Shown piece after piece: positions 15,646-62,036 of a stretch of DNA of 64,000 bases. Where the stretch lies: IMG/VR virus record IMGVR_UViG_3300035698_014689, positions 30,887-94,886 of that record, one strand, 5' to 3'. Both the position numbers and the translations under genes were made by a program. The notes under the pieces are model-generated. The model made no database searches and was not told the DNA's origin. It saw only the letters and a list, made by a program, of their open reading frames with translations. Numbering within the stretch: position 1 is the first letter of the stretch; every line of letters begins with the position of its first letter. Origin of the DNA: a virus.

Positions 15646-15671
15646 AGTCTCCCTCTAATTATAACACTTCA

Positions 15672-15699
15672 ATTATACCACCTCTTTGGAGAAAAACAA
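15672..15699 (-). promoter_or_regulatory. Promoter for protease/capsid genes (TTGTTT-N16-TATAAT)
   Basis: A perfect TATAAT -10 at 15672-15677, 16-bp spacer and -35 TTGTTT at 15694-15699, 27 bases before the start of the protease gene. This is the best sigma70-type match seen in the window and lies in one of its few real intergenic gaps. Confidence 0.65.
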
Positions 15700-15772
15700 G
15701 TCGCCTCAATAAAAATACTGTAATTGCACTTTGAACAAAAACAAGCGGAAAAATGAAAAAACCTTGAAATCA

Positions 15773-15788
15773 GTGCAACCAAGTGCAC
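15773..15788. promoter_or_regulatory. Dispersed palindrome GTGCA-N6-TGCAC, copy 2
   Basis: Exact copy GTGCAACCAAGTGCAC, about 75 bp upstream of the protease promoter, in the 184-bp gap 15646-15829. The rest of that gap is AT-rich and holds nothing else I recognise. Confidence 0.65.
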
Positions 15789-15829
15789 TTCTGGTATCAT
15801 GTCTAAAGTCAAAACAAAACCAAATTCTT

Positions 15830-16045
15830 TCACCTCTTTCCAAATAATGCGTGTCTTTTAGCGGTGACTTCCATATCAAAATCAATATAAGAAGTCAACG
15901 TCCAATAATCAAAAATAGCTCGCAATTCACTGACAATCTCTTTTATACTCAATTCATAATAAACACCTCGATACTCAGGAATCATTCTATGAACAAAAAA
16001 ATCTCTTTCCTCCCCTTTTTCAGGCTTTCTCCAATCATTTAACAT
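15830..16045 (-). CDS. Small hypothetical protein
   Basis: 71 residues, charged, mostly helical (ELSIKEIVSELRAIFDYW). Start ATG preceded by AGGAGG at a good distance; it overlaps the end of the minor head protein gene by 11 bases. No family recognised. Confidence 0.6.
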   Translation of the reverse strand: MLNDWRKPEKGEERDFFVHRMIPEYRGVYYELSIKEIVSELRAIFDYWTLTSYIDFDMEVTAKRHALFGKR

Positions 16046-18740: not shown

Positions 18741-18741
18741 T

Positions 18742-21528
18742 CTATCCTTCAGCCATCTTCTCGGCGATTTTATTCAATTTATCCCCAGCCAATTTCATCT
18801 CCGCTTCTGTTGGCATCGCTTGAATCTCATCAACGAATAAAGGAATACCGCCAGTGAGAATAAAAGGCTTGTCCCCACCTTTAACTGGAGGCCCTAATTG
18901 AGCTATGTCACGGATGTCATTTATACTGATCACACCCTTCTCCATGAACGCCAGCAGGTTCTCCCGCTGATTCGCTTTATCTGTGACATCCAAAGATTCG
19001 AAAACGATCTTAACTGAAGTCGTTCCAAGTCCGTAATGGAAAAGCCTAGAAAGCATCTTCTCCCATCTACGTTGAAGAGGATCGACAATACGGTTCTTAT
19101 AGTTGCTGGACTGTGCATCACCTTTACCAGAGCCAAGACTGGCTGAATCGGTCATCCCGACAATCGCGGCAGACATACCATGAGCAACCAAAATTGCTTC
19201 TTGATTATTCTTGCGTGTATCCTGAAAAGAACCCTCCTGCGTATCATCGGTCAACTTCTTAAATTCAACCTTGACATCCCCTCCAGCGGCTGGGATAGGA
19301 ATGACGAGTGTTTTATGCGCCTGCCCTTTTATATCCTGAGCGAAGTAACGCTGGATGACTTCCTTGACTTCGTTGGAAAGTTTCGCCCCAGTGATAATGA
19401 CTGCATACTGCGGAACTGCGTTATGATCGAAAAACTGCAAGAAAAAATCACGTATGTTGATATTCCCCATAATACTACCTATCGCAGGAATCACGTCGGG
19501 GACGCCATAATACATCGACTTCGGATGTGGCTTTGTCAGCATCATTACTTCCGTCGCTGAATCTTGAAGTCTCGATACATCACTATTCAAATCATCCTTA
19601 CCTTTCATGTTCCATTTTCCAGCACTGAATTTGCCGTCCTTAGCGGGGTCGAAAGGCAGAGGATTATTATTTATGTCGGTTCTGTTCGGACTCAAAAGTT
19701 TTCTTCCAAAAGGCAGGTAGTAACGATAAGTGCCACTCTTGCCCGAATTTGCTCCCCCCAGTTCCGCGAAACCCGTCCAACCTTTAAGGACGCGCATCCG
19801 AGCCACAGGAATATGATAGAGCCTTCGGATTTTCTTGTCCAGTGCTCGAACAACCTCTATAAAGCAATAACCCACAGACTCATAGTCAGTGGCGGCTTTT
19901 TCGAGCACACCCTCGAAGCGGTCGTTCTCATTGCAGTTCTCAATGAAATCCTCGACCTCAACACTCTGAGACGAGGATTCTGTGTCCTTCTCATCCTTAT
20001 TCTTTTTAGCGATGACATATTCACGACCAACGGCATCCATAACTTTCGTCTTCACGCAATTGTGAGTGACCAAGCCATTCGCTACAAAAGTGTGTGAACC
20101 CTCGACCTCAAGATTGTAAACAGAGCCAGAAAAAGATTTCTGTTCAGAACTGATGACTTTTCTCAAAAGAACCTCACCAATACCTAATAGTGAAGTAAAA
20201 CAATTTCTTTTCCGAGAATTAGTACATGACCCCACAGAATTGGAAAGGAAATCCTTAGCATCCTGACCTCTCAAATCAAGTCTATACACTCTTCTTTTTG
20301 AAATGGGCTGTTGCTCATAGACAGAAACATCATATCTCAAATAAGATAAAAGTGTGAATAACTGTTTAGATAATTCTTTGGAGGTAGTAACGAAAATACA
20401 ATCACCATTCTTATTGATATGGCCATCACCATCAAAATAAGAACGCAGAAGAATTAAAATCTGTCTCAACTCCAAACGAGCTAAGAAGTCTTTCTGAATT
20501 CTTTTTCCATAGCAAAACTTTCCACCCAAAAAGGTCATTAACTTATGAACATACGGTTTCGAACAAACAATCTTGCCTGTATTTTTCTCCTCATCAAAGT
20601 AAACCTTCGAAGTGGAGTCGAAACAATTACTTAATCCATTCATCACTCTTTGATGATAATCCTTCTCATCTTTGTGAAAAGTGAATACAGTCGAATAATT
20701 ACATTGATATAAATTACGTTTATTTATGAACTCATAATCAGAGCAACTTCCTTCCGCCAAATAAAACCCCAGTAATTCACAGAGCTCATCCGAGGCGACA
20801 ATCTTCTGTCCCTGAAAAACGAGTGCTGTTTCATCAACCATTTTCCATAAAGGCAGGGAACCAACGATAAAATCCCCCACAGCAATCTCGGATGCGTTTT
20901 TCCAAGAAAGTAATTCATTCGCCTTATCACTTAAAAGTACACCCTCTCCCGATAAGCCACTGACTCTTTTTTCTCTTGTTATCTTCGCTCTAAAATCAGC
21001 AAATGAACTGTCAACTACTAAATAAGGATGCTCTGATGTAGAACTTATTGTTCTCAATCCATGAACATCTAAAAGAACAAGCTCCTCCTCCACATCAAAT
21101 TTCATTACATCTGTTACTTCATAAAAATCATTGTTATGTGAAAGAACTCTTTCCCCCTTCTTAATAGAAGCAATAGAACGACTCTCTAAATCTTTCGTTA
21201 AAACAGTGACATCATCGGTAAAGCAACGATAATGAACCTCGTCAACATCCAAAAACTTCGCCATCGTCTCAGGATCAAAGGGAGGGTAAACAATATCTTG
21301 TGACGTGACCTCGTCATCCTCGTCCTTGGTGTCGGGCTGATTAGAACCTTCCATCTCCTTCTCGATCAACGTCTTGGCTTGCTGACCCTTCTTCATCAAA
21401 TCCTGTGCCGATATGACCTCTCCATCCGACATAATAAAAGCAGAGTCCACAATCGGCTCATCACTTACAGAACTTTTCGTCATTACCTTATCTCTTTTCC
21501 GACCTACGCGTCTGTGTAACTTTCTCAT
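18742..21528 (-). CDS. Portal protein, intein-containing
   Basis: 928 residues, about 539 after splicing. Order (TerS, TerL, portal, MuF) and sequence features (DYESVGYCFIEVVRALDKKI; HIPVARMRVLKG; NIRDFFLQFFDHNAVPQYAV; ANQRENLLAFMEKGVISIND) match SPP1/HK97-type portals, which form the dodecameric DNA gate. A long acidic N-terminal stretch precedes the portal fold. The intein interrupts after residue 101, before the core wing domain. Confidence 0.85.
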   Translation of the reverse strand: MRKLHRRVGRKRDKVMTKSSVSDEPIVDSAFIMSDGEVISAQDLMKKGQQAKTLIEKEMEGSNQPDTKDEDDEVTSQDIVYPPFDPETMAKFLDVDEVHYRCFTDDVTVLTKDLESRSIASIKKGERVLSHNNDFYEVTDVMKFDVEEELVLLDVHGLRTISSTSEHPYLVVDSSFADFRAKITREKRVSGLSGEGVLLSDKANELLSWKNASEIAVGDFIVGSLPLWKMVDETALVFQGQKIVASDELCELLGFYLAEGSCSDYEFINKRNLYQCNYSTVFTFHKDEKDYHQRVMNGLSNCFDSTSKVYFDEEKNTGKIVCSKPYVHKLMTFLGGKFCYGKRIQKDFLARLELRQILILLRSYFDGDGHINKNGDCIFVTTSKELSKQLFTLLSYLRYDVSVYEQQPISKRRVYRLDLRGQDAKDFLSNSVGSCTNSRKRNCFTSLLGIGEVLLRKVISSEQKSFSGSVYNLEVEGSHTFVANGLVTHNCVKTKVMDAVGREYVIAKKNKDEKDTESSSQSVEVEDFIENCNENDRFEGVLEKAATDYESVGYCFIEVVRALDKKIRRLYHIPVARMRVLKGWTGFAELGGANSGKSGTYRYYLPFGRKLLSPNRTDINNNPLPFDPAKDGKFSAGKWNMKGKDDLNSDVSRLQDSATEVMMLTKPHPKSMYYGVPDVIPAIGSIMGNINIRDFFLQFFDHNAVPQYAVIITGAKLSNEVKEVIQRYFAQDIKGQAHKTLVIPIPAAGGDVKVEFKKLTDDTQEGSFQDTRKNNQEAILVAHGMSAAIVGMTDSASLGSGKGDAQSSNYKNRIVDPLQRRWEKMLSRLFHYGLGTTSVKIVFESLDVTDKANQRENLLAFMEKGVISINDIRDIAQLGPPVKGGDKPFILTGGIPLFVDEIQAMPTEAEMKLAGDKLNKIAEKMAEG
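20059..21225 (-). other. Intein in portal protein, 389 aa, LAGLIDADG type
   Basis: Starts Cys102 (CFTDDVTVLTKD), block B TSEHPYLVV, ends FVANGLVTHN followed by Cys491. Two dodecapeptide-type motifs, LLGFYLAEGS and LLRSYFDGDGHI, show a monomeric LAGLIDADG homing endonuclease. All splicing residues (first Cys, terminal His-Asn, next Cys) are present. Confidence 0.92.
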
Positions 21529-38054: not shown

Positions 38055-38394
38055 AATGCTCCTTCATTTCCTCAAATAAATTCAGGGGGATCACCGCGTA
38101 CTCTTTCTCAATGTTTTTGACCTCATTAAACCTGAGAACAATGACAGGCTCTTTCCCCGCACCATTCGCTTCATTGAGGAGCTTCCGCAACATCGCCACG
38201 TCGATCTTAATAGAACAGGCATCGGTTGACTTGAGATCGTAGAGAAAATCTTTCGTTTTGAAATCCCCCTTATGACCTGCAATCGCACCCGAACACGGGG
38301 TCTGAATAGCAGAGCAAAGCTTCGCCACCCTCTTCTCATTCCTGTTCGCCTTACGCTTGATACTTGGTCTGTTGCTGAAGTCATAGTGATTCAC
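38044..38394 (-). CDS. Holliday-junction-resolvase-like PD-(D/E)XK nuclease
   Basis: 116 residues from a GTG that overlaps the RecA... stop as GTGA and has AGGAG upstream. NEKRVAKLCSAIQTPCSGAI (Glu), KGDFKTKDFLYDLKSTDACS (D...DxK) and AGKEPVIVLRF match archaeal Hjc-like nuclease folds used by phages as resolvases. Directly follows recA, consistent with branch processing. Confidence 0.65.
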   Translation of the reverse strand: MNHYDFSNRPSIKRKANRNEKRVAKLCSAIQTPCSGAIAGHKGDFKTKDFLYDLKSTDACSIKIDVAMLRKLLNEANGAGKEPVIVLRFNEVKNIEKEYAVIPLNLFEEMKEHYDN

Positions 38395-41300
38395 AATTTC
38401 TCCTCTAGGACGTACTCCCACAGAGTATCGTGAATATCCTGATTCTCCATCAAGATTTTAACCAGCTCGTCCTTCCCTTTGGCTCTTATCTCATCGTCCC
38501 CATAAGAGAAAAACCACTCACCTTTTCCACACTTGATAAGGCCAAGCTGACGGCAGTATTTTATAATTGATTCAGCGTTATTCACATCGCCTTGCTCATA
38601 CCCGTCATATTCGCCCACGGACAGATGGAAGAGAAACTCCTCTTTGGCGGGGTACGTTTTATTCTTGGCGGTCGTTCCTGAAATCTCCACATATGCGTTC
38701 TTGCAAATCTTCGGAACATCGTGGTATTTGCCAGTTTTCATACGAAGTTCTATACTATTGGCAAAACGCTGTCCTTTCCCAGCGGGAAGAGTCATTGTAT
38801 CACCAAACATAACGCCTATCTTTTCTCTAGGCTGATTCAGACAAAATAAACTCGGGCCACGTCCTTTCAAGCCATTCAGAGCTGACTGCCATTTTCTGAA
38901 GGCACGATTCATCATCAACGCTTGCCGTCCTATCACGCCCTCTTCAGCCGATTTTTCTAGCTCCACAGTAGGAACAGCCATAGCAATTGAATCGAAAACA
39001 ATTGCGTCGAAAATGCCCTCGTTGATCGCAGTAGTGGTGACATCCACAGCCTGCTCCCCACACTCGGGCTTAAATACCATATTCAGAGTGGTGTCAAAAC
39101 CGAGCTTCTGCGCCCACTCCACATCAAATGTATTATGAGCAACAAAATCATTGACTACAAAATTATGAGTCTCGTTAATAGTTAAATCAAAAGTCTCTAC
39201 CAATCCTCCATCTTCTATTGAAACTATCCGATCAAAAACAAAATCTGTATCATTCTCGACTTTCTTTCTAACATCTTCGTCTGTAGGGAAAAAATGAACA
39301 CCCTGCGTTTGTTTAGGCAACCTCTTCTTAGCACCATCAAAATACTTACTATACCAACTCTCCAACAATCGTTGTTTCCTACCTAATAACCGAAATGTTT
39401 CATAAAACTTCAACAGTTCTATTCCATTGATAGAGATCAAACCCGTTTTATCATATCTCTCCAAATCAGGACGCTTCAAAGTACTATGAATACCAAAACG
39501 TCTTAAAAGCATCCGTAACTGCATTAATAATTCTAAGCTATTATTACTAAAGGAAAGGGACGCTCTACTCTTATTAACAGTACCATCAGTCATAAAAAGA
39601 GCTACTACCAATCCTTTTAAATTCTCTGTCTTTTGTTGCCAAACATCTATAGGAATATGCTTTCTTTCTTTTGTTACTCCTATTAAACCCTGCTCCTTTA
39701 CAAACGTTCGTAAAGCTAAAGGATGCCATCTATTAGCCTTCTCAATGCCTGAAATCCTATAATGTCTATCATCATTCAGAGTTAGTTTTGCACCAAATCT
39801 TCTGCAAATACGGGTCATCTCATCTAATACTTCTTTATCGATATTTGTAAAAGACATACAGGCTGAAGGGTCAAAATAACCATCACCTAACATATAACCA
39901 AGAAAAGAGATCAAATCTCTATCAATATCCGAACGTTCGAAATCAAGAAACAAATTTCGTGGACGAGTTAACCAATCTGAAGAAGACAATTCATCTGATC
40001 TTTTCCAAATAAGACACTTCGACTCCTTATCATAGATGAGCATTCTGTGATTCTCTGTCACACTAACAGATTCACCATTAGCAGTACTAATCTTCAAAAC
40101 TCTCTTTTCTCCATTCTCATACCAATTCTCAATTTTACTACAAAGAGCTTTCCCATCAAACTCTGATAAAACATCACTTTGGATTTTATTCTTAATCATC
40201 TCCTCAATCGGAACAAAAGTACCATACTCAGGAAGAAATATATGTTCTCCTTTCGCAACACACCCCTCTACGTCAATCACGCAGGCGACACCACGTTCAG
40301 CGTCACCAGTGCATTTGCAATACTCCATCTTCTGGTGGCAGTTTCTGCAATAACTATTGACGGAAGCACACGCCTTTGTCGCTATCATTGTTTTCCCGCA
40401 ATTATGAACGATAAAATTCGAGGCCACGTAATTGTTATATGGAGCAATACATTTTATGTCAAATAACTGTCTTCTTCCAATCGGTTCAATCTTATCTATG
40501 ACATCCTCAACTGCCACATAACGATAATACTGGTGGTTCTCAATCATGTGACCACTCAGATGTTCCCCTGCTTCCATCAGCTCCAAATTCTCAATAGAAT
40601 CATTCTTACTATTCCCATCTTTATGATGAATCGTATATCCTTTCGGCACATAAAAGAAGCCAAAACGTTCCTTAATATCATCACGATTCAGTATCTCTTT
40701 GTACTCTTCATAAGACAACCCGTTTTTATCTGCTTCAAAAACTAAGAAGGACTTGCGTATTCTATGATAATCACAGCCATTAACACGTTTCTTATACCCT
40801 CTAGGATGTGCAAATTTAACCGTTGTTTCTGTATAGCTGATTGCCTCATGCTTCTTTTTGAAGTGTGTATTATTATGGACATAAAGAATACTCCCTGCTT
40901 CCATCTCACTTAACTTTAAATACCTCCCTTCTCCCACATAAAACTTATGTTCAGCAGTGCATTCAATTGCATGTCCTCCAATAGTGGACACTCTAAAACA
41001 ATCGTTCCTTCCACAGTCAACGACATCAACCACAGGGGTTCTAAAGATTCTATCATCCTCATCAATCGAGGGAACAACAAAAGAAGAGCCCATTGTTTCA
41101 GGCCTTTGGTAAGAACCTTTTCCCTTTCTTTGTAAACCATGAAAACGATTATACAGATTCTCGATTGTTCCTCCCTTATGGTTCTGAACCTTCCCTTCTT
41201 TATCAATAACAGAATAAGGAATAAACGTGTCCTTTGATAAACAGGATTCGGGGCCGTATAACAGAAAAATTCTACTGCGAGGCCAGCCTCCACCAAGAGC

Positions 41301-41429
41301 TAAATCCAGCTCTAAACTTCCTGAAGAAAATCGTGTACTTGTTTTGAAAAGTGGATCGCAGGCAAAACTGGCGGATTCAGGTATGACCTTGTTGACCTTG
41401 TCGATAAATGCTTTGACTTTCAAACTCAT
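38391..41429 (-). CDS. recA: RecA recombinase with two inteins
   Basis: 1012 residues, 354 after removal of two inteins, the normal RecA size. Exteins: MSLKVKAFID start, RFSSGSLELDLALGGGWPRS, Walker A GPES/CGKT interrupted by intein 1, Walker B VIDVEG/TFDVEWA interrupted by intein 2, then GIFDAIVFDSIAMAVP, RQALMMNRAFRKW and the L2-like CLNQPREKIGV. A CHQKMEYCKC zinc-like insertion lies between the two inteins. It should drive strand exchange and phage recombination. Confidence 0.92.
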   Translation of the reverse strand: MSLKVKAFIDKVNKVIPESASFACDPLFKTSTRFSSGSLELDLALGGGWPRSRIFLLYGPESCLSKDTFIPYSVIDKEGKVQNHKGGTIENLYNRFHGLQRKGKGSYQRPETMGSSFVVPSIDEDDRIFRTPVVDVVDCGRNDCFRVSTIGGHAIECTAEHKFYVGEGRYLKLSEMEAGSILYVHNNTHFKKKHEAISYTETTVKFAHPRGYKKRVNGCDYHRIRKSFLVFEADKNGLSYEEYKEILNRDDIKERFGFFYVPKGYTIHHKDGNSKNDSIENLELMEAGEHLSGHMIENHQYYRYVAVEDVIDKIEPIGRRQLFDIKCIAPYNNYVASNFIVHNCGKTMIATKACASVNSYCRNCHQKMEYCKCTGDAERGVACVIDVEGCVAKGEHIFLPEYGTFVPIEEMIKNKIQSDVLSEFDGKALCSKIENWYENGEKRVLKISTANGESVSVTENHRMLIYDKESKCLIWKRSDELSSSDWLTRPRNLFLDFERSDIDRDLISFLGYMLGDGYFDPSACMSFTNIDKEVLDEMTRICRRFGAKLTLNDDRHYRISGIEKANRWHPLALRTFVKEQGLIGVTKERKHIPIDVWQQKTENLKGLVVALFMTDGTVNKSRASLSFSNNSLELLMQLRMLLRRFGIHSTLKRPDLERYDKTGLISINGIELLKFYETFRLLGRKQRLLESWYSKYFDGAKKRLPKQTQGVHFFPTDEDVRKKVENDTDFVFDRIVSIEDGGLVETFDLTINETHNFVVNDFVAHNTFDVEWAQKLGFDTTLNMVFKPECGEQAVDVTTTAINEGIFDAIVFDSIAMAVPTVELEKSAEEGVIGRQALMMNRAFRKWQSALNGLKGRGPSLFCLNQPREKIGVMFGDTMTLPAGKGQRFANSIELRMKTGKYHDVPKICKNAYVEISGTTAKNKTYPAKEEFLFHLSVGEYDGYEQGDVNNAESIIKYCRQLGLIKCGKGEWFFSYGDDEIRAKGKDELVKILMENQDIHDTLWEYVLEEKL
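39132..40262 (-). other. RecA intein 2, 377 aa, LAGLIDADG type
   Basis: Residues 390-766: starts CVAKGEHIFL, block B VTENHRMLI, LAGLIDADG-type motifs FLGYMLGDGYF and LVVALFMTDGTV, ends FVVNDFVAHN followed by Thr. Inserted in the Walker B region of RecA. Confidence 0.92.
40401..41243 (-). other. RecA intein 1, 281 aa, HNH type
   Basis: Residues 63-343: starts CLSKDTFIPY, block B CTAEHKFYVGEG, an HNH domain (GYTIHHKDGNSKNDSIENLE) and ends YVASNFIVHN before Cys344. Inserted inside the Walker A loop between Ser and Cys. Confidence 0.9.
40957..40972. promoter_or_regulatory. Dispersed palindrome, one mismatch (GTGCATTCAATTGCAT)
   Basis: Inside the RecA intein 1 coding region. Confidence 0.4.
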
Positions 41430-43128: not shown

Positions 43129-45705
43129 CTACGCCTTTATTGTGAAGCCTAATTCGGCTACTTGAAATTTACGCTTCTTAGCCATGTTACGACAGTGTGT
43201 CACATTATCCACATAGTCCACGACCACGGGTTCCTTCTTACCTTTATGTACTCTCTGAATTCGTCCTATAGGTTGCTCCACATCCGCTCTAGGTGTTGCG
43301 AGAAAACATGTGTCCATATCAGGAATATCAGTTCCCTCCGAATTGTGAACCACTACATCAGAAATACTATAACAATGGAAATCAGGAATTGAAATATCCC
43401 CTACTTCTTGTTCTCCTAATTCTTCAAAATCAAGTATTGGAATCCAACGTATATTTGGAAGCAACTGATTATCTAAATTAAAATGCGAAATCAACTCGGA
43501 TAACGCCAAATAACCACCATCTTTATTGCAATGTAAAAACTTGCTGGTATAACCACTCTTTTTAAGATGACCACATGCTTCAACGAATGAAATCGTCTTT
43601 TCTTTTAACGCCTCTTTAATTCTAATCACGTATTTTACTGGAACAATGTCTAATTTAGTGACACCATAATCCGTCAATCGTAAATTCTTTCTCTTTTTCT
43701 CTAAAACTAAAGGTATCTCATTTAGAAAGCGTTTTCCATAACAACGAGGGAGACGAAAATGCCAAACAGAGGAGCTAAAATAAACCTTGGAAGAAACAAA
43801 ACCAAGACGTGAGAAAAGCGTGACGCATTGATTAACCAATGCTTTATTTTTGCCACAAAACCCAACTAAGCCCTCTTTATCCACATGACCGTCTGTATCA
43901 ATCAAACCAGCTAATATAAAACGTATCTTCTCTTTAGGTAAAAACATGAATTCTTCAGGGATCGTCTTATTTTCACACTTATTCTTCATCCTATATTTTC
44001 GTAACACTGATTGAAGCCAAGAAAGATTCTTCTTAGAGTATTTCCCTCTATCCAAACAGCGGGATCGAAAATGCTGAGAACGGTTTTCTTTCAAATACAT
44101 ACCGTGGGTTCTCAAAATAAAATCACATCTTTCTACCAACTCCTTATCATCTGAAGTGAATTCTATGAAGCCTTTTTGAACCATACAACCGTCTCCAATC
44201 AAAGCTCCTAAAAGATACAAATCATACTTAGACAGTTCTTTAATATCCTTAGTTTCTACATCTATAACCCTAGGTGAAATCAAGAAATCGTGTGCAGTTA
44301 ATCGCACTGCTTCTTTCCATCCATCATCAGTTAATACTCGATGATCCTTAGAAGTGTCCAAATTACCCAACAAATGCTTAATTCTTATACAATCTTTTTT
44401 GCCTGCTTCCATAAATGAAGTGCCTTTATCTGTGAATTGATGTCTGTGACTACTAACATCATAAGATAATACACATTCTTCTGATTTCAAGTACTGAATC
44501 TGTTTTTCTTCGCCAGAAATATAATCCTTAAATAAGGTGGTTGACGGGATACACATCATCTGATAAGAAGCAATGATAATAGACATCTGACTTGACCTTT
44601 TCAACTCATCCTTTTTCATTCCTCCAAGATACAATCCAACGGATGCAAAACCACCCGCCTTCAATAAACGATCCCTTAACTCCTTTTGCAGAAAAAACGC
44701 ATGTTCACGACGGTCGGTCAACACCAAAACCTTCCTGTCAGCATTCAACGCTTTCAGAACCTCTCCCATCAAATGATTGTTTCGATTAGGCTCCTGAGTG
44801 ATCAGAGTGATCAACTTGGCGGAGTTCACACTTCTTCCCCTTTTCGGGACGGTGAACAAAGGATTATACGGCACTTGGAAATACGTGCCAGTGACACGCT
44901 CCCCCTTCATACGTGTGAGTAGAGGGCCTATATGCCAGTGAAACAGAAACTCAAGGCCGTCATTCCGTCGAAATGTTGCAGATAACCCGAGACGTACTCT
45001 CGCTTCAAATTGCCTAACCACGGCCTCAAAAGTGCTGGCTGGTGTATGATGTGCCTCATCAATGATCACCAGCCCAAAATGACCAAATGCTCCTGCCTCC
45101 CTCAAACTCTCAATTTGACTTGTGATAGTGGCGAACATTCCGATAGTGATATGCTTCCCCTCAAAGTCACGTCTCTTCTGCTGAATCCGTCCAACCCTGC
45201 AATGAGGAAGAAACTCATGGATACGCTCTTCCCACTGCTCCAACAAATCGTTTTTATGAACAAGCACCAATGTGGGAACTTTCAGAATAGAAGCTATGTA
45301 GAGGGCGGCCACAGTCTTACCAACGCCACACTCAGCTTCAATCAAACCCCCGTATCTGCCACGCATGGTTTTCAGACTCTCAAAAATATCATTCACGGCA
45401 CTCGTCTGACCTACTCGAAGATCACCCGAGAAGTCAGGAAAGTCAAGGGAGGCTGGAAACTTCGTCCCGTCATATATTCGAAAAGCATGACCGTCCTTCT
45501 CATAGAATCTTTTGAGAAAGTATTGCCGTGGTATTCCAATAATCTGACCCTCCCCCTCAAACACTTTCATACTAATATGTCTGCCGTACTTTTCATCCTT
45601 GACAAAGATGGAAAGATCACGACTCAACATATTCTGAAGCGTTGGCAGTGGAAATATCTTTTTATCAAACCACACTAATCTATCTAATATGACATGATGA
45701 CTCAT
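43129..45705 (-). CDS. SF2 helicase (UvsW/SSL2-like), intein-containing
   Basis: 858 residues, 454 after splicing. N-terminal DNA-binding part, Walker A ECGVGKT (125-131), DEAH box 216-219, motif III LSATFRRND, RecA2 domain with VLVLTDRREHA, and motif V/VI region IIIASYQMM / SEGTDIPDMDTCFLATPRAD and GRIQRV. It should be an ATP-driven branch-migration or repair helicase in replication and recombination. Confidence 0.9.
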   Translation of the reverse strand: MSHHVILDRLVWFDKKIFPLPTLQNMLSRDLSIFVKDEKYGRHISMKVFEGEGQIIGIPRQYFLKRFYEKDGHAFRIYDGTKFPASLDFPDFSGDLRVGQTSAVNDIFESLKTMRGRYGGLIEAECGVGKTVAALYIASILKVPTLVLVHKNDLLEQWEERIHEFLPHCRVGRIQQKRRDFEGKHITIGMFATITSQIESLREAGAFGHFGLVIIDEAHHTPASTFEAVVRQFEARVRLGLSATFRRNDGLEFLFHWHIGPLLTRMKGERVTGTYFQVPYNPLFTVPKRGRSVNSAKLITLITQEPNRNNHLMGEVLKALNADRKVLVLTDRREHAFFLQKELRDRLLKAGGFASVGLYLGGMKKDELKRSSQMSIIIASYQMMCIPSTTLFKDYISGEEKQIQYLKSEECVLSYDVSSHRHQFTDKGTSFMEAGKKDCIRIKHLLGNLDTSKDHRVLTDDGWKEAVRLTAHDFLISPRVIDVETKDIKELSKYDLYLLGALIGDGCMVQKGFIEFTSDDKELVERCDFILRTHGMYLKENRSQHFRSRCLDRGKYSKKNLSWLQSVLRKYRMKNKCENKTIPEEFMFLPKEKIRFILAGLIDTDGHVDKEGLVGFCGKNKALVNQCVTLFSRLGFVSSKVYFSSSVWHFRLPRCYGKRFLNEIPLVLEKKRKNLRLTDYGVTKLDIVPVKYVIRIKEALKEKTISFVEACGHLKKSGYTSKFLHCNKDGGYLALSELISHFNLDNQLLPNIRWIPILDFEELGEQEVGDISIPDFHCYSISDVVVHNSEGTDIPDMDTCFLATPRADVEQPIGRIQRVHKGKKEPVVVDYVDNVTHCRNMAKKRKFQVAELGFTIKA
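43342..44553 (-). other. Helicase intein, 404 aa, LAGLIDADG type
   Basis: Residues 385-788: starts CIPSTTLFKDY, block B TSKDHRVLTDDGW, dodecapeptides LLGALIGDGCM and ILAGLIDTDGHV, ends CYSISDVVVHN followed by Ser. Sits in motif V of the helicase. Confidence 0.92.
44292..44307. promoter_or_regulatory. Dispersed palindrome, weaker copy (GTGCAGTTAATCGCAC)
   Basis: Inside the helicase intein; one mismatch in the right half-site. May be chance. Confidence 0.3.
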
Positions 45706-45920
45706 TATTTGGGCTCCCCTGTTATCATATCCTCAATCCAATTCTTCCTACAGTCTAAATCTATTTGAATTTTCCCCATAGTCAGGGTAAACATCCTACC
45801 ACTCCAATACGTCCCAAAAGTCCAAGGATCAGTCCATTTAAAACAAGCGAACTTGCCATACCCGCCCCAATACTTAAAACTCAACTTTTCTCCTAAAATC
45901 CTTTTGATGCCTATTTGCAT
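45705..45920 (-). CDS. Small hypothetical protein
   Basis: 71 residues, unusually rich in Trp/Tyr/Phe/Gly (SFKYWGGYGKFACFKWTDPW). Overlaps the helicase start by one base. No family recognised. Confidence 0.6.
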   Translation of the reverse strand: MQIGIKRILGEKLSFKYWGGYGKFACFKWTDPWTFGTYWSGRMFTLTMGKIQIDLDCRKNWIEDMITGEPK

Positions 45921-45943
45921 AACTTCTCCTTTATCTTACTTGA

Positions 45944-47815
45944 CTACTTAGCTCCTCCCCAGTTATCGCAGACCGTCAAATCGGCATTTATCGGAACCGA
46001 TAAGTCTGGAGTTGTATAACGCATCTTCTCCAACAGAATCTCGGACACTTCGGGAGTGAACTCCTTCCTACATTCTATGATGACCTCATCGTGTACTTCA
46101 TTGCTAGGCCAAACACCATCAAGCCAAACACCCGCTGAAACCATGTCATCTCTAAATGCCTTTTCAGCAAGCATCAAATAGTGTGAACCAGCCGACTGAA
46201 TCGGAAAGTTCACGAACATATTCAGAGAATGCTTTTTACTCATCCTGATCGACTTGCTTGGGATACGTCTGATCCTTCCAAAAATATCAGAGACTTGACC
46301 AGCTGAATACATCAAATCCTCCATCTTAATATGCCAGCGTTTCACGCCTTGATATTTTCTGAAAAATTTATTGAGAATATCCTCCCACTCGTCCTCCGTA
46401 TACGTCCCGAACTGTTGCTTCATTTTCCAAGCGGTAGCGAGATATATAGCGGCAAAGTTCACATTCTTGGCGGCGGCATCCACACCAGCAGAAGGACTAC
46501 GGGGCATTCCCGTAACATCTGCTGTCATTTGGTGAATATCCTTACCATGCCAAAACCCCTTGAATTCGGGGTCTTTAATTACCTGTTCATTTCCCTCCTC
46601 CCCGCAATTAGGACAGTGTGTGAGGTAAACAGTATTATCGCCTTTAGAATCGCATACATGGCATTCCCAACTGGTGTACGCTGATCTCATCTCCGCATCC
46701 TGAGAGACGTGAGCCATCAACCGCAACTCCATCTGTGAAAGGTCAACAACTATCAAATCCATTCCTTTCGGTGCTTCCACACAACTTCTGATATTCAATT
46801 CAGGGTCTTTGATCACAGGCTGATTCTGAAAATTTGGTTCTCTCTGACGTTTCCTTCCAGTAACACTTGTCAAATAAACAGAGGGATGAATACGACTTTC
46901 CATACTTTCACGAGCCCTCAAAGTATTCGGCTCCAAATAAGTGCCAATCATCTTCGCGGCATTTCGATAATTGATCAAATTACCTATCTCGGGGTATTTG
47001 ACGGCAAGCACCTCGACCACTTCTTTATTCAATTGAAATTGTTTTGTCTTTTCAGTGCGTGGAACTCCTGACGAATCCCAACGCATATCCTCGAACATAC
47101 GTTTTCCTAATTGCTTATTAGAATTGAGATTTATATCATCTCCTAAAATCAACTGGAGTTTTGTCTTAGCATCCTCCCTGAAAACCTTGTACTTTTCAAT
47201 CAATTCCTCAGACCTTGGAACAGACCACAGGCAACCACGCTCTTCCTGTTCGCAAGCATATCTCAAACCGTGCATGTAAATCTTATAAAAGATTTCTTCC
47301 AAGTTGTCCTTGATCATACGTGGCTGAAGCCAGTCCAGCCAGTAACGAAGAGTCCAAAAACAGTCCTCTTTTCCATAGTCAAAAAACTCTTTGCTGTGAC
47401 GACCAAAGGCTGACGTTTCTTTGTATGTAGCCATTTGATGATTAAAAACGTCTTTTATACGAGCCTTCAAACCAATACGACTTTCAATTATATTCTCATC
47501 AACGAGATTAGTGGCAACCATCGTATCGGCTAAGTTGACGGGATATTTATCAATCAGTTTTTCCTTCCGCAATCCACGTAAATCAAACTTGATGTTATGG
47601 CCGACAATTCTACGATCATCTATCAGAATGCAATCAAGTGCACAACGTATCTCATCTCGATCCTCAGTGTAGGAGGAAAGAATCTTGGAGTCTTTTGGGT
47701 TTTTCGCGGCAAATCCACATCCCCAAAACTCCCAGTCATCTTGATGAATATGCGGATGATTGCTTTCTATATCTAAAACAATGTCGCCCTGTATATTGAG
47801 TATCTTTTCCAGCAT
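45944..47815 (-). CDS. polA: Family A DNA polymerase with 3'-5' exonuclease
   Basis: 623 residues from an ATG preceded by GGAG. Exonuclease: VLDIES (Asp15, Glu17), HNIKFDLRGL and YGKEDCFWTLRYW. Polymerase: motif A IVVDLSQMELRLMAH, motif B RSPSAGVDAAAKNVNFAAIY and motif C EVHDEVII. An inserted zinc ribbon (CHVCDSKG ... CPNCGEEG, about 46595-46670) lies between motifs A and B. This is the replicative polymerase. No intein here. Confidence 0.92.
   Translation of the reverse strand: MLEKILNIQGDIVLDIESNHPHIHQDDWEFWGCGFAAKNPKDSKILSSYTEDRDEIRCALDCILIDDRRIVGHNIKFDLRGLRKEKLIDKYPVNLADTMVATNLVDENIIESRIGLKARIKDVFNHQMATYKETSAFGRHSKEFFDYGKEDCFWTLRYWLDWLQPRMIKDNLEEIFYKIYMHGLRYACEQEERGCLWSVPRSEELIEKYKVFREDAKTKLQLILGDDINLNSNKQLGKRMFEDMRWDSSGVPRTEKTKQFQLNKEVVEVLAVKYPEIGNLINYRNAAKMIGTYLEPNTLRARESMESRIHPSVYLTSVTGRKRQREPNFQNQPVIKDPELNIRSCVEAPKGMDLIVVDLSQMELRLMAHVSQDAEMRSAYTSWECHVCDSKGDNTVYLTHCPNCGEEGNEQVIKDPEFKGFWHGKDIHQMTADVTGMPRSPSAGVDAAAKNVNFAAIYLATAWKMKQQFGTYTEDEWEDILNKFFRKYQGVKRWHIKMEDLMYSAGQVSDIFGRIRRIPSKSIRMSKKHSLNMFVNFPIQSAGSHYLMLAEKAFRDDMVSAGVWLDGVWPSNEVHDEVIIECRKEFTPEVSEILLEKMRYTTPDLSVPINADLTVCDNWGGAK
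47628..47643. promoter_or_regulatory. Dispersed palindrome, one mismatch (ATGCAATCAAGTGCAC)
   Basis: Inside the DNA polymerase gene. Confidence 0.4.
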
Positions 47816-47907
47816 CGTATTTTCTCCAATTAAAAAGAGGAGAGGCTCAAGGCACATCCACCTAATAAAAGATGATTTATACCCTGCCCCTCTCCCAAAA
47901 TCAAAAC
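47816..47907 (-). promoter_or_regulatory. Structured leader before DNA polymerase gene
   Basis: Minus strand: GGAGAGG pairs with CCTCTCC across about 45 bases, followed by TCTTTTT and then the GGAG ribosome site. Layout, U-tract and a shared loop pattern (TCRTCTTTT then GATG) resemble the recA leader at 41430-41523. Confidence 0.45.
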
Positions 47908-48567
47908 CTAGTAACGGGGTTTCTCGGCCTCGCCACCAATAGTGCCCTGAGCTTTCAATTTCCGCACATACTGCTCAACCAAATCAGGGTTTGGCTTCAA
48001 GAGCTCCGCGTAATCAAACTCATCAAGGCAAGGGAATTTACTCATCGTCCCCTCATCAACCATTCCCTCGAATTCAAACGTGTCGCCAACAGAGGGTGAC
48101 TTGGAGTCCGCACCACGAAAAACAGAGTAGCAAGCACCCTTCAGGCTCTCACCTTTATCAACACGTTTCTTGTGTTGACGTACCAGTTTTTCCCACGTGG
48201 CGTTCTTGGCTATGAGAAGTCGCCTCTCATTCTTGTGCTCTTTCCCCGCTTTGTCGGTGTACTTGTTCGTATCAATCACCGTGAAAACAGCGGCCTGATA
48301 ACGTCCTACACCCAGATCACAGAGAGGGCAGGGCTTTCCAAGATGTGAGAGACAAGTCGCGTAGTTTCGATATGAACTGCCGATTTTCATCGAGTGCTCA
48401 AACATAATAACTTCGGGCTCACCTGTCAGGAAAATAATTCTGCGTTCTGTCTCTTTAGGCATCCAGTAGCGGATACCCGCGGACTCGTTTCTTACGGGCT
48501 TGTCAAATTCGGTGTCAAAACCTTTGCCACCTGCATACCAATCGCCTTTCTTGCTTTCTTCACTCAT
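47908..48567 (-). CDS. Single-stranded DNA-binding protein (phage type)
   Basis: 219 residues. RYWMPKETERRIIFLTGEPE, F-E-H, then CLSHLGKPCPLCDLG zinc motif, AVFTVIDTNKYTD and a C-terminal acidic-to-basic tail fit the phage SSB family that pairs an OB fold with a Cys-rich zinc site (gp32-like logic). It lies between polymerase and primase genes. Confidence 0.75.
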   Translation of the reverse strand: MSEESKKGDWYAGGKGFDTEFDKPVRNESAGIRYWMPKETERRIIFLTGEPEVIMFEHSMKIGSSYRNYATCLSHLGKPCPLCDLGVGRYQAAVFTVIDTNKYTDKAGKEHKNERRLLIAKNATWEKLVRQHKKRVDKGESLKGACYSVFRGADSKSPSVGDTFEFEGMVDEGTMSKFPCLDEFDYAELLKPNPDLVEQYVRKLKAQGTIGGEAEKPRY

Positions 48568-49556
48568 TTGAGTTCTCCTAGCTTTTGTTTTAAGTTTCTC
48601 TCGCTTGTGTCACCTGCGTCTGTTCCTTCTGTGGGACGCATTCTTGTGATCCGTGGTATCTTTCCTTTTAACTTCTTTTGCACCTCCTTCCATTCGGAAT
48701 TTCCAGCTATGTCAATGTCATAAAAACAGACAACCGTTTTGCCTATCTCCTCCAACATGTCACATTGCTGTTTTGATAGATTCGCTGTGAACGTACAGAC
48801 GACTTCATATACTCCAAGCAAATCCAGTGATACTAAATTGCAGAAAGTTCGAAATAAATCAAACGGGCCCTCAACTAATATCACCCTTAAACAATCATGG
48901 TTAAAATTCTTACGCATTCCTAATGTTCGAGTGAATCGAGAACTCCAATAATTCTTGTAGGGCTTCTCAGACATTCCAGTGATGTCACGTCCGACCAAAC
49001 CTATGAAATTCTCAAAATCGTAAACTCGCCAACAGATTCTCTTCTCAATTTCATCCCATTTTAGATCAAAATTCTCACTCAATAATATAGGGTCTAGTTG
49101 CCTATTTTTCAAGTAGTCAATCGCATTTTTCGGCAAGTTTTTTTCTAGTTCAGCAGACCAAAAGTCAAGGGCGCTCATATCAATCTCGATAGGGTCTCCC
49201 CCAGTCCAGTCATCATAAGACTCAACAGCCCTCTTCAGGCGGGTTCCAACGTCTCCATTGTCCTCCTCCAGTATTTCCCAGCCAACCTTCGTCATCTCTT
49301 TATTCCCAGTGAGCCCTCCGATCTTCATCGGCAACATCCAAAATTCTCCGTACTCTTTGCAGGAGAAACAGCGGTAATTACTGACTCCATGATCATTGAC
49401 CCATATTCCGAAAGAAGGATGTCTATCCGTACCGTGTTCATGCGTCCAAGGGGCGAAGGGACAACAGGTCATAACCGACCTCTGTGAAATCGCATCATAT
49501 TCAGCGTCCCACAAACCCGCTTTGTTCAAATAATGGAATATCGCTTTTCTATTCAT
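48564..49556 (-). CDS. DNA primase (CHC2 zinc finger, TOPRIM)
   Basis: 330 residues. Zinc domain: TCCPFAPWTHEHG with C63/C66 in RCFSC. TOPRIM: VILVEGPFDL (Glu229) and CFYDIDIAGNSE (Asp280, Asp282), the metal-binding acidic set. A DnaG-type short primase that should make primers for the polymerase; its helicase partner is encoded separately at 50017-51312. The start overlaps an upstream small ORF stop. Confidence 0.88.
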   Translation of the reverse strand: MNRKAIFHYLNKAGLWDAEYDAISQRSVMTCCPFAPWTHEHGTDRHPSFGIWVNDHGVSNYRCFSCKEYGEFWMLPMKIGGLTGNKEMTKVGWEILEEDNGDVGTRLKRAVESYDDWTGGDPIEIDMSALDFWSAELEKNLPKNAIDYLKNRQLDPILLSENFDLKWDEIEKRICWRVYDFENFIGLVGRDITGMSEKPYKNYWSSRFTRTLGMRKNFNHDCLRVILVEGPFDLFRTFCNLVSLDLLGVYEVVCTFTANLSKQQCDMLEEIGKTVVCFYDIDIAGNSEWKEVQKKLKGKIPRITRMRPTEGTDAGDTSERNLKQKLGELK

Positions 49557-49701
49557 GTCTCCTCGCCTTTTCTATGTCTTCCTTTGTAAATGGTAAACGA
49601 ATCGATAAATCAACATACTCTTTATCTCGTGGAGTCTTCAATGTTTCTCCAGTCGGAAGAGTCTCTTCCTCATAGTCCCCGTCTACAGCCCATTTCTTCA
49701 A
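49549..49701 (-). CDS. Small ORF between primase and its neighbour (possible C-terminus of it)
   Basis: 50 codons from a TTG, reading KKWAVDGDYEEETLPTGETL and ending KARRHE; the stop overlaps the primase ATG (ATGAATAG), which supports translation. The start is weak, and the upstream gene ends in the other frame 32 bases into it, so a frameshift joining the two is possible. Confidence 0.4.
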   Translation of the reverse strand: MKKWAVDGDYEEETLPTGETLKTPRDKEYVDLSIRLPFTKEDIEKARRHE

Positions 49702-50020
49702 TGAAAAGTTTCTTCAAAGACAAAGGCTTTTTCACCGAAGAAGCTGTGGTTTCCTCGTTCAACCTCATTCTCAATGTCCTATTTTTAGCTTCTAATGTTA
49801 AATTTCTCTCTCTCAACCACTCTTGCTTAGTTTCTGACTGCGTATTCTTATCCAGCAACAAAAGAAGAACTTCCTTAGTGAGCACGCTGACCTGATTTGA
49901 TTTCTTGTCAGTAGTAGTGAGTGGGATCACCTCATCTAATCCTTCAATTAAAAGTGACAACTCCTTGCCTGAGATATACTGCTCGGCAATCTCTTTTATT
50001 TTTTTCTTCCCTTTACTCAT
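49670..50020 (-). CDS. Hypothetical protein
   Basis: 116 residues, helical and charged (MSKGKKKIKEIAEQYISGKE; LTLEAKNRTLRMRLNEE). Overlaps the DnaB-like gene by four bases. No family recognised. Confidence 0.5.
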   Translation of the reverse strand: MSKGKKKIKEIAEQYISGKELSLLIEGLDEVIPLTTTDKKSNQVSVLTKEVLLLLLDKNTQSETKQEWLRERNLTLEAKNRTLRMRLNEETTASSVKKPLSLKKLFIEEMGCRRGL

Positions 50021-51312
50021 GCGTAACTCACCTTTGTTTCCTCGGCCTTGCCAGTGGCAGGGTCTTCAGTAACCGCTTCCGTATAATCCATGATGTCTTT
50101 ATTCCAGTTGATCAAGATATTCTTTTTCGGCCCGTCACCGTCACGAAACTTCAACATATCCAAACCCATAACATCTATCAGAGCCATATCGTCGTCCTGT
50201 TGCATTCCTATGACTATGTCAGGAGAGATAATCCACTCCTTCGCATATCTGACATTCCATCTATTTATCTTCTTTTTATCCAGCCCCTTTCCAGTCTCAG
50301 ACGCATCCCCCAATTGCGAAGTCACAATCCAAGGTATATTAGTGAAAGCCGTGGCCTCCTGCAAATCCTCAATTACTTTCACCTGTCCTCCCCAGTCCCC
50401 TCCCATCCCCGACTCTAAACGATAACCACCATCAATAATCACCATTCTAGGATTCAACTCCTCAACTAATATCAAAATGTCCTGCACCGTTCTCGCTTGA
50501 GCTTTTCCTACTAGAATGATGTCACCGTAATCAACTTTGTCATCTAGCGCCTTCTCAGTATCCTCATACCATTTTTCCTCACTGACGGAATCTAAATCAC
50601 CATCCCGCACACCTGACAATTTCAACTTGTATTTCACGCAGTCAATTCTTCGACCAATTCTCACTGGACTCATCTCAGTGGAGACAACCAAGATGCACTC
50701 ATCCTTACCAATTTGCATTGAAGCGTAATCCGCAATAATAGACAACAACCAACTTTTTCCGATTGACGTGAAACCTACTATCGTATGCAGAATACCTCCA
50801 ACCCACCCGCCTATCAAATCATTCAGACTGGGCCAAGGTGTAGCAATTCCCACCAGCCCTCCCATCGCCTTTGCTTTTTCATATGCCTCAATCCTTTCAA
50901 GCCCATCCTTCTTGTAACTATGTGGTTTCTCGACCACACGCTCCAAAAGATTCTTGTAGGTCAAAGCAAGTTTCAACTCGGTCAAAGCCGTCAGAGGCTC
51001 TTTAGACTCCAAGTATTTCAACGAGGACTCAATCAGAGGTGAGACTTTATGTGTTACGTACCTTTCCTTCATCAATGATGACAGATATTCCGTGTCTTCT
51101 GGATCGGTGTCATCTTTCAACGTGATCCCAAACCTCTCCTCTAATTCCTTTTGACTTGGATACCTCCCAGCACTCACCTCCTTTTTCAAATGATTATATG
51201 CTTTTCTTGCATCACCGAGAAAACAGTACTCATCCACACCGCAACGCTTAAAATCATTCAGACATTTGTTTCTAAGAGTATGCCCGATAACTCTCGCACC
51301 AAGTAGACTCAT
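50017..51312 (-). CDS. DnaB-like replicative helicase
   Basis: 431 residues. N-terminal helical domain, then the RecA-like core: TPWPSLNDLIGGWVGGILHT, Walker A GFTSIGKS (180-187), Walker B MVIIDGGYRLE, IPWIVTSQLGDAS and a C-terminal strand region. Pairs with the DnaC-like loader encoded immediately upstream (four-base overlap). Moves 5'-3' on the lagging strand ahead of the fork. Confidence 0.88.
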   Translation of the reverse strand: MSLLGARVIGHTLRNKCLNDFKRCGVDEYCFLGDARKAYNHLKKEVSAGRYPSQKELEERFGITLKDDTDPEDTEYLSSLMKERYVTHKVSPLIESSLKYLESKEPLTALTELKLALTYKNLLERVVEKPHSYKKDGLERIEAYEKAKAMGGLVGIATPWPSLNDLIGGWVGGILHTIVGFTSIGKSWLLSIIADYASMQIGKDECILVVSTEMSPVRIGRRIDCVKYKLKLSGVRDGDLDSVSEEKWYEDTEKALDDKVDYGDIILVGKAQARTVQDILILVEELNPRMVIIDGGYRLESGMGGDWGGQVKVIEDLQEATAFTNIPWIVTSQLGDASETGKGLDKKKINRWNVRYAKEWIISPDIVIGMQQDDDMALIDVMGLDMLKFRDGDGPKKNILINWNKDIMDYTEAVTEDPATGKAEETKVSYA

Positions 51313-51896
51313 AAAAACCTCTTTTTATTTGCTTCTTTAATATCAGAGCGAAAATTGTGACCAATACACTTAACGGGTAAGATCGACTCCTGCACCAACT
51401 CGAATAAATTTGGGCTCTCCAACTTCATATCCTTCGTGGATATATTTGAAGTCAGGATAGTAGCCTTTCGATCATATCCGCGTTTCCGTATAACAGTCTC
51501 AACTATCATTTCCCTCTGTGAATCTTTTCCAGTGAATATGACTTCATCAATCACCAACAAATCAACAGATAACAAACGACTGTAATACGTGGTATTCAAG
51601 TCGAATAGTTTCTTATCAAAAATCATGTCAGGAATATCAGAACCCATAACGAATAAACCGAATTTCTTCAGTGGAATCAAGTCTCTTAATAAAAGAGTTG
51701 AAAGAGCCGTTTTTCCTGTGGAACGATCACCCCAAAGATACAACCCAACGCCATCCTCAACAGCCTCTTCAATCTTGTTCCGATATGCCGTGATATGCTC
51801 CATGTGGCAACACGTTTTCGGGATTATGTCATAAGAGCACTCCCAGTATAACTCAGGAATCTCCATCCTTTGTAGATACGTTTTTTCTTTTCTCAT
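51309..51896 (-). CDS. DnaC/IstB-like helicase loader
   Basis: 195 residues. AAA+ core with Walker A GDRSTGKT (56-63), Walker B LLVIDEVIF, sensor-type ATILTSNISTK. It should load the DnaB-like helicase onto melted origin DNA. Confidence 0.85.
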   Translation of the reverse strand: MRKEKTYLQRMEIPELYWECSYDIIPKTCCHMEHITAYRNKIEEAVEDGVGLYLWGDRSTGKTALSTLLLRDLIPLKKFGLFVMGSDIPDMIFDKKLFDLNTTYYSRLLSVDLLVIDEVIFTGKDSQREMIVETVIRKRGYDRKATILTSNISTKDMKLESPNLFELVQESILPVKCIGHNFRSDIKEANKKRFL

Positions 51897-60670: not shown

Positions 60671-61299
60671 TGAGCTACTTCGTACTAGGTCTAACAAGTA
60701 CTGGTAAAAGCACCTTGGCAGAAAACATGTCGGGGTGCTTTTATTTTCCCTCCGAAATTTTATATCTGCTGACAACCAAACAAACAGAACTCTTTCCGCG
60801 CATCCTCCAGATCGTCACAGAAAAGCCCGAGAATTTTCGACCCTTGGCGTACTTCTGCAAAAGACCACTGAGGAAATACTTCAAAGAGCTCAGGAAACTG
60901 CCTGACCGCTCGGTGATCGAATGGGATAGGTTTCAGGAAATGCTGGACGAAATAAACAGTATGCTCTCCCCAGTGATACTAGAGGGCGAGATTCTATCAC
61001 ATGGGAAAATCTTCGCTACCATACAAAAGAGCGTCGAAAATAAATGCTTCCTGCTTGAGTTGCCTTTAGAAGTGATTTGGCAGAGATACCAAGAGCGCTA
61101 TCCTGCAATGGAAAAATATCCCAACTCCCACGAAATGACGTTGGCTAAAAACCACCTTGCGAATATCTGTCAGGAAAAGAACATTCCCAGCGGTGACTAT
61201 AAAAGAATCAAGTATCTGATCCAGTCATCCATAAACAAATTCACGAAACTGGAAACGGCCGCCACGAAGCTCCTTCAGGAATTACAAGAGTGCAATTGA
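60670..61299 (+). CDS. P-loop kinase-like protein
   Basis: 209 residues. Walker A GLTSTGKST (7-15), a D-type VIEWDRFQE and VILEGEILSHG in the Walker B region, then a lid-like basic stretch. Looks like a nucleoside, polynucleotide or small-molecule kinase. Its ATG overlaps the methyltransferase stop (TAATG). Confidence 0.65.
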   Translation: MSYFVLGLTSTGKSTLAENMSGCFYFPSEILYLLTTKQTELFPRILQIVTEKPENFRPLAYFCKRPLRKYFKELRKLPDRSVIEWDRFQEMLDEINSMLSPVILEGEILSHGKIFATIQKSVENKCFLLELPLEVIWQRYQERYPAMEKYPNSHEMTLAKNHLANICQEKNIPSGDYKRIKYLIQSSINKFTKLETAATKLLQELQECN

Positions 61300-61305
61300 A
61301 TGCAC
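61290..61305. promoter_or_regulatory. Dispersed palindrome, exact copy (GTGCAATTGAATGCAC)
   Basis: Spans the stop codon of the P-loop gene, at the edge of the repeat region. Confidence 0.6.
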
Positions 61306-61341
61306 GCTCTCTTCACACCCCCTCCACTAATATCGAAGCCC

Positions 61342-61734
61342 TTTTGTATATTAACAATTTTTTAAAAGACAAAGTACCAAAAAGAAAACATAAGTTTATT
61401 TCATAAACTTAACATTATATATATCTTTTCTTTCTTTAATATAATACTTATATATAATTAAGATACGCAGTTGTATGTTAATATACAAAACGGATTTTAC
61501 GTTTTTTAAGTCATAAGTCTTTGGTTTTTAAAGAATAAAAATGTTAACATACAAAATCAAAAGGTATGTTAATATACAAAATCGAAAATATGTTAATATA
61601 CAAAATGAAAAGTGCTGTTTTTCGGGTCATAAGTCTTTGGTAGTCAACAAAAATAGTATGTTAATATACAAAATGGCTGTTTTTTCCAAAACATACTAAT
61701 AAACACACTAATAAAGTATGTTAATATACAAAAT
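61342..61734. repeat. Iteron-like repeat region, candidate origin or control locus
   Basis: Non-coding, AT-rich. Direct copies of TATGTTAATATACAAAAT or near versions at 61474, 61541, 61565, 61589, 61657 and 61717, plus one inverted copy at 61342-61357. A second repeat, GTCATAAGTCTTTGGT, occurs twice (about 61510 and 61626). The region lies between two convergent gene ends. No ORF fits the stretch 61306-61744. Confidence 0.8.
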
Positions 61735-61744
61735 GAAAACGGCA

Positions 61745-61777
61745 TAAAAAAGGGCTCCCATATTTCAGGAAGCCCTA
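61745..61777 (-). terminator. Rho-independent terminator, possibly two-way
   Basis: Stem AGGGCTTCC / GGGAGCCCT (one mismatch), 8-base loop, then TTTTTT on the minus strand. It ends the leftward transcript from 62036 and protects the repeat region; the plus strand has a further T run at 61791. Confidence 0.8.
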
Positions 61778-61796
61778 TATAACACTAGGTCTTTTT

Positions 61797-62036
61797 TTAT
61801 TCTGCGATCTTACCATCTTGCAGGTCTTTGAAATACTGATCGGCTTGTTCCTCAGTGTGATATTCCCCAGCATTCCAGCCTGCTTTCTCAGTGCAACAAA
61901 GAAACGAGAGTATGAGAAAAAGTAGAGCTGTGAGAAAAGCGATCCAACTGAGGATCAGTTTTATTTTTATCATCCTCTTCAAACGATTTAGTGCTACCTC
62001 GAATTCAGCACTGTGATTTGGCTTCTTGTCTGTCAT
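61797..62036 (-). CDS. Small membrane protein
   Basis: 79 residues: membrane segment LILSWIAFLTALLFLILSFL, then a charged amphipathic helix. GGAGG precedes the ATG. No family recognised. Confidence 0.6.
   Translation of the reverse strand: MTDKKPNHSAEFEVALNRLKRMIKIKLILSWIAFLTALLFLILSFLCCTEKAGWNAGEYHTEEQADQYFKDLQDGKIAE

Follow-up and report, generated by a model that had tools for sequence, protein, structure and literature searches.

Likely replication origin of the iteron type in a gap between convergent genes of an uncultured phage

The phage SPP1 has two replication origins, oriR and oriL, each composed of direct repeats and an AT-rich unwinding element, and oriR is intergenic, lying beside moron genes (PMC6316719). 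Origins of lambda and lambdoid phages also combine direct repeats with an AT-rich unwinding element, and their iterons contain A tracts (PMC7466680). In RepA_N-type systems, the iterons are direct repeats that are semi-palindromic and carry an A tract (PMC7145576). A repeat cluster with elements of all these systems is found near the right end of the DNA described here, for which a candidate iteron origin had been proposed in an earlier note.

The window, i.e. the whole stretch of DNA analysed, is 64 kb long and corresponds to bases 30887-94886 of a 94,886-bp IMG/VR viral contig (G000); coordinates on the full record are marked "contig". The minus strand carries about 94% of the coding sequence. 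The nearest sequences come from uncultured phages whose major capsid proteins are 55-66%, and whose DNA polymerases are 33-36%, identical to those of this phage, and the right-hand 7.9 kb has no similar DNA in the phage collection. Relatives were gathered by alignment of DNA polymerase and of the capsid protein; a search for relatives with a single DNA polymerase sequence gave no match. As to circular closure of the contig, neither an end repeat nor a gene clearly joined across the ends was found. Several proteins, the portal-region, RecA-like and helicase proteins among them (window 16035-21528, 38391-41429 and 43129-45705), seem from inspection of their translations by eye to have intein or homing-endonuclease insertions.

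The repeat array and the gap that contains it

The array lies in a non-coding gap of 497 bp (61300-61796; 26% GC) between convergent genes, a plus-strand gene ending at 61299 and a minus-strand gene ending at 61797. This AT-rich gap, the repeat cluster, the duplicated box and the neighbouring terminator, all of them claimed in the earlier note, are borne out. From left to right, the features are as follows.

61341-61358, minus strand: inverted iteron copy (ATTGTTAATATACAAAAG), left of the AT-rich segment
61361-61490, no strand: AT-rich segment, proposed DNA unwinding element, the contig's least stable 60-, 100- and 150-bp stretches
61474-61491, plus strand: iteron 1, semi-palindrome GTAT-G-TTAA-T-ATAC followed by AAAAC
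61510-61525, plus strand: second motif, box 1, GTCATAAGTCTTTGGT, exact
61540-61557, plus strand: iteron 2 (AATGTTAACATACAAAAT)
61565-61582, plus strand: iteron 3, exact consensus
61589-61606, plus strand: iteron 4, exact consensus
61626-61641, plus strand: second motif, box 2, GTCATAAGTCTTTGGT, exact
61657-61674, plus strand: iteron 5, exact consensus
61717-61734, plus strand: iteron 6, exact consensus
61751-61776, minus strand: intrinsic terminator-like hairpin with a 9-bp stem and a T tract, which would halt leftward transcription before the repeats

The six direct copies and the inverted copy of (G)TATGTTAATATACAAAAT (window 61341-61734) are 18-19 bp long, so that several direct repeats of about 15-22 bp, as in iteron origins, stand within one short region. 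A search of the 64-kb window for TATGTTAATATACAAAAT with up to three mismatches gave seven matches, all in this one gap, where 0.10 were expected, and none of 100 shuffles reached seven. Each iteron contains a 14-bp near-palindrome, GTATGTTAATATAC (GTAT-G-TTAA-T-ATAC), in which six of the seven pairs match (chance about 2.6%), with AAAAT on one side. The spacing of the direct copies is irregular (66, 25, 24, 68 and 60 bp); the regular, helically phased spacing that is common, not universal, in iteron origins is absent from this array, a property that is regarded as typical and not as defining. Within the array, a unit of about 116 bp, iteron, 18/19 bp, box, 14/15 bp, iteron, is duplicated. The repeats and boxes of the two units are 89-100% identical while the spacers have diverged to 43-50%, which suggests that selection acted on the motifs. 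No further copy of GTCATAAGTCTTTGGT with up to three mismatches occurs in the whole contig.

A de novo scan of the 94,886-bp contig for 10-mers that occur at least four times within 500 bp picked out this array and no other place. In ten first-order Markov simulations, no 12-mer occurred more than twice in 400 bp; in the array region, one occurs five times. Outside the window there is an eighth iteron, exact and alone (contig 2380-2398). It belongs to another long non-coding region (contig 830-2434), where short degenerate repeats, two GTGCA palindromes and one of the contig's least stable stretches are also found. The phage therefore has one full array and one lone iteron. Beyond the contig, a search of IMG/VR and GTDB genomes for the iteron pair pattern gave no match, and blastn of the gap sequence against phages and plasmids gave weak AT-rich matches only.

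By computed stability, the most easily melted DNA of the contig is the stretch that separates the inverted copy from the direct ones, a property that an unwinding element should have. The 100-bp minimum is at 61361-61460 (85% AT) and the 150-bp minimum at 61341-61490, and the AT-rich segment has a z value of -5.0, about five standard deviations below the contig mean. The second least stable locus of the 100-bp list (contig 1007-1106) is in the region of the lone iteron, about 1.3 kb away from it. No DnaA boxes were found.

The earlier note had also allowed for operators. A regulator dimer bound to the semi-palindromes would control transcription near the two plus-strand genes, or from a hidden promoter in the AT-rich stretch. 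The near-palindrome in every repeat is of the kind seen in a dimer site, although RepA_N-type iterons are semi-palindromic too, and two weak promoter-like matches face left (61509-61480 and 61481-61454), although such matches in the region are no more frequent than in shuffles (5 versus 5.0). The gap is bounded by gene ends, not starts, seven of the eight copies sit at a single place and not at several promoters, and no repressor-like HTH family was matched by the non-structural proteins scanned. Promoter sites together with a cognate repressor gene, the hallmark of an operator array, were not found here. Weakened by the convergent gap, by the lack of copies at other promoters and by the unmatched repressor families, transcriptional control by these repeats seems unlikely.

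Replication proteins and the proposed mode of initiation

Three proteins bear on the reading of the array as an iteron origin.

50017-51312, minus strand: DnaB-like replicative helicase (PHROG 19, E 4e-35)
51309-51896, minus strand: DnaC-like helicase loader (PHROG 50, E 2e-15)
contig 15322-16104, outside the window: winged-helix initiator-like protein of 260 aa, weak profile matches

A helicase-loading route, consisting of a DnaC-like loader and a DnaB-like helicase, is thus encoded, and the window also encodes a primase and a DNA polymerase. The initiator assignment is based on weak profile scores, on synteny and on a modest model. The profile matches are to PHROG 428 "replication initiation protein" (E 0.006) and to HTH_36 (E 0.01). 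In relatives, the gene of the homologue is directly upstream of the loader gene, and the family profile detects the protein in 10 relatives. In the AlphaFold2 model (pLDDT 65, pTM 0.40), the N-terminal helices and a hairpin fit a winged helix; the PDB matches are winged-helix regulators, and among the best viral matches of the fold are several proteins that bear the name replication initiator (E 6e-5 to 2e-4). The replication module (window 43129-51896) adjoins the initiator gene in relatives; here it is separated from that gene and lies across the structural genes. No repressor, partition or integrase genes were recognised.

Phage origins are often within or beside the initiator gene. Neither this phage nor any of three relatives has iterons within or beside the initiator-like gene, and therefore the array, as the only candidate iteron array, is the best candidate target of the initiator-like protein. 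The two are 76 kb apart along the contig, or 17.6 kb if the contig closes.

We consider it likely that the locus is the phage's replication origin, an iteron origin of the SPP1/lambda type. At such a theta-type origin, the initiator-like protein would bind the 18-19 bp semi-palindromic iterons, and binding on both sides, to the six direct copies on the right and the inverted one on the left, would open the AT-rich segment at about 61361-61490. Together with the DnaC-like loader, the initiator would then set the DnaB helicase onto the exposed strand. The GTCATAAGTCTTTGGT boxes are probably sites for an accessory factor, and the placement between convergent genes behind the right-hand terminator would exclude leftward transcription. 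Replication would presumably start at this locus, and the forks would then probably run mainly leftward since the skew does not switch.

The switch in cumulative GC skew that was to be looked for according to the earlier note is absent, the cumulative skew falling monotonically through the whole contig. This argues against symmetric bidirectional replication from the locus, but the test is weak, being confounded by the location of about 94% of the coding sequence on one strand. At third codon positions, the skew on the coding strand is -0.08 for the two plus-strand genes and +0.25 for the minus-strand genes, a hint from just 217 sites that some of the bias may be tied to the DNA strand. Besides the skew, the distance to the initiator-like gene, the irregular spacing and the lack of a DnaA-like box count against an origin. 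The origin claim of the earlier note has gained the stability minimum and the initiator-like protein, loader and helicase; it lacks the skew switch and stands as the best explanation, not as a proven one.

Comparative support for the function is lacking, because neither the iteron nor the adjoining plus-strand gene was found in 24 related records. The flanking proteins were not found in relatives either, and most relatives do not show an equivalent repeat cluster. Absence of the repeat from related phages with an origin elsewhere would have spoken against the origin claim; the repeat is indeed absent from the relatives, but as no origin is known for any of these phages, the claim is not refuted by this. 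Two relatives, G005 and G006, have tandem arrays near their contig ends, which were not accepted as homologues, since sequence and build differ. The G006 array (L150:16700-17350) is made of 10-bp CATTACGTGG and 15-bp TCGGGGCCGCGTCCG units and the G005 array (L140:440-670) of 9-bp AACTGTGCA units, both in DNA that looks non-coding or is doubtfully coding, and they may serve those phages as origins or as end elements. In G005, the stability minimum was rejected as an equivalent origin, being a hairpin region without iterons.

Dispersed palindromes and other functions of the repeats

A second type of repeat is scattered over the contig. The palindrome GTGCA-N6-TGCAC, with a centre that is mostly nTYRAn, has 12 exact copies, where 0.05 would be expected, and 21 when one mismatch is allowed, in genic and intergenic DNA.

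window 3498, 15773, 28046, 31153, 34998, 54615, 59127 and 61290: exact sites
contig 1947, 2419, 6566 and 9875: exact sites
61290-61305, no strand: the copy beside the array, 35 bp from the inverted iteron

Another copy is separated by 20 bp from the lone iteron and is oriented to it as the copy beside the array is to the inverted iteron; the chance of a palindrome within 40 bp of both iteron loci is 0.0007-0.002. Most of the larger relatives carry a dispersed palindrome of their own, with similar geometry and a different sequence. A TGCAAACGTTTGCA-like palindrome has 49 copies in G005 (L140-L145) and a TCCAATYRATTGGA-like one has 63 in G006 (L146-L151), and in both the spacing is more regular than at random (CV 0.52 and 0.63 versus 0.97-0.98). 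Own palindromes with 7-12 copies are present in G001 (L095-L100), G003 (L101-L104), G007 (L152-L155), G008 (L156-L159) and G009 (L160-L162).

ParB and Noc bind palindromes of 14-16 bp, which makes a conserved protein of this phage (window 32806-33834) a candidate binder of the dispersed palindromes such as GTGCAATTGAGTGCAC. This protein has a histone-H1-like, lysine-rich N-terminal tail, and the best PDB matches of its predicted fold are ParB and Noc, with weak E-values (0.09 to 0.7) and high probability. In G005, no homologue of it was found despite the 49 sites, and G004 has the protein with no enriched palindrome, so that the link between protein and palindrome is only a lead. Dispersed palindromic 17-bp repeats resembling those of the present phages occur in Cluster O mycobacteriophages, where their function is reported to be unknown (PMC4351075), and for this reason the family-wide palindromes may be a more interesting lead than the array. 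One could go further and regard the array and the lone iteron as two parts of one origin system, each with a parS- or Noc-site-like palindrome (an iteron and, at 20-35 bp, GTGCATTYAATTGCAC), in which the ParB/Noc-like protein would link origin firing, through the genome-wide palindrome network, with genome organisation or with control of the host chromosome, and this in a phage without recognised partition or lysogeny genes; such coupling is decidedly unlikely.

The same protein bears on whether the repeats themselves might be a partition or centromere-like site, or another site of DNA architecture that tethers or organises the phage genome. Arrays of direct repeats act as centromeres in plasmids, and the dispersed palindromes adjoin both iteron loci. 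However, no ParA, ParM or TubZ family is among the family matches listed, the ParB/Noc-like protein is kept in relatives that have no iteron and is thus not matched to it, and the contig-wide stability minimum between the repeats would be left unexplained. A partition site is therefore quite improbable. It is very improbable that the repeats are a packaging signal (pac or cos) or mark a genome end. Both iteron loci are close to contig ends, the array 2.3-2.7 kb from the right one and the lone copy 2.4 kb from the left one, and the contigs of the longest relatives, measured from the capsid gene, break off at roughly comparable positions; the terminase genes, however, are about 38 kb away, neither a terminal repeat nor a cleavage-site feature was recognised, and relatives with a 44-48% identical terminase do not have the repeat. 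That the repeats act as RNA, for example as a type III toxin-antitoxin repeat RNA or as a structured 3' untranslated region belonging to the plus-strand genes, is suggested by the shared orientation of the direct copies and the two plus-strand genes ending just upstream, and is very improbable in view of the irregular spacing, the inverted copy, the lack of a co-directional toxin gene downstream and the lack of any Rfam match up to E 0.5.

Comparison with described origins

As an iteron origin, the locus finds its closest parallel in oriR/oriL of SPP1 with gp38, gp39 and gp40. In both phages, direct repeats stand with an AT-rich element, nearly all genes are on one strand, and a phage-encoded origin-binding protein (here the initiator-like candidate), a helicase loader and a DnaB helicase are available; oriR is likewise intergenic and away from the initiator gene. 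SPP1 differs in having two full origins about 13 kb apart, in place of one array and a lone copy, and in having an origin inside the initiator gene, where none was found here, and the likeness is one of layout.

The ori of lambda and of Stx phages, with the O protein, similarly has iterons beside an AT-rich tract and an A tract in each iteron, and there the initiator passes to DnaB as is proposed for this phage. The lambda iterons are inside the O gene, whereas those described here are intergenic, irregularly spaced and on both sides of the AT-rich tract, with a distant initiator gene that, like its surroundings in this phage and three relatives, is free of iterons; the contig has no other cluster. 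RepA_N-type origins, including that of the PLE of Vibrio cholerae, share semi-palindromic direct repeats and a poly-A tract in a non-coding region. The initiator-like protein of this phage, in contrast, is not assigned to RepA_N, and its family accompanies a DnaC-like loader and a DnaB helicase.

A family of uncultured phages of about 100 kb, without a close relative in the phage collection that was searched, thereby gains a concrete and testable candidate for its origin and initiator. The locus suggests an origin sited far from its own initiator gene, and it is probably a further example of the kind of origin known from SPP1 and lambda.
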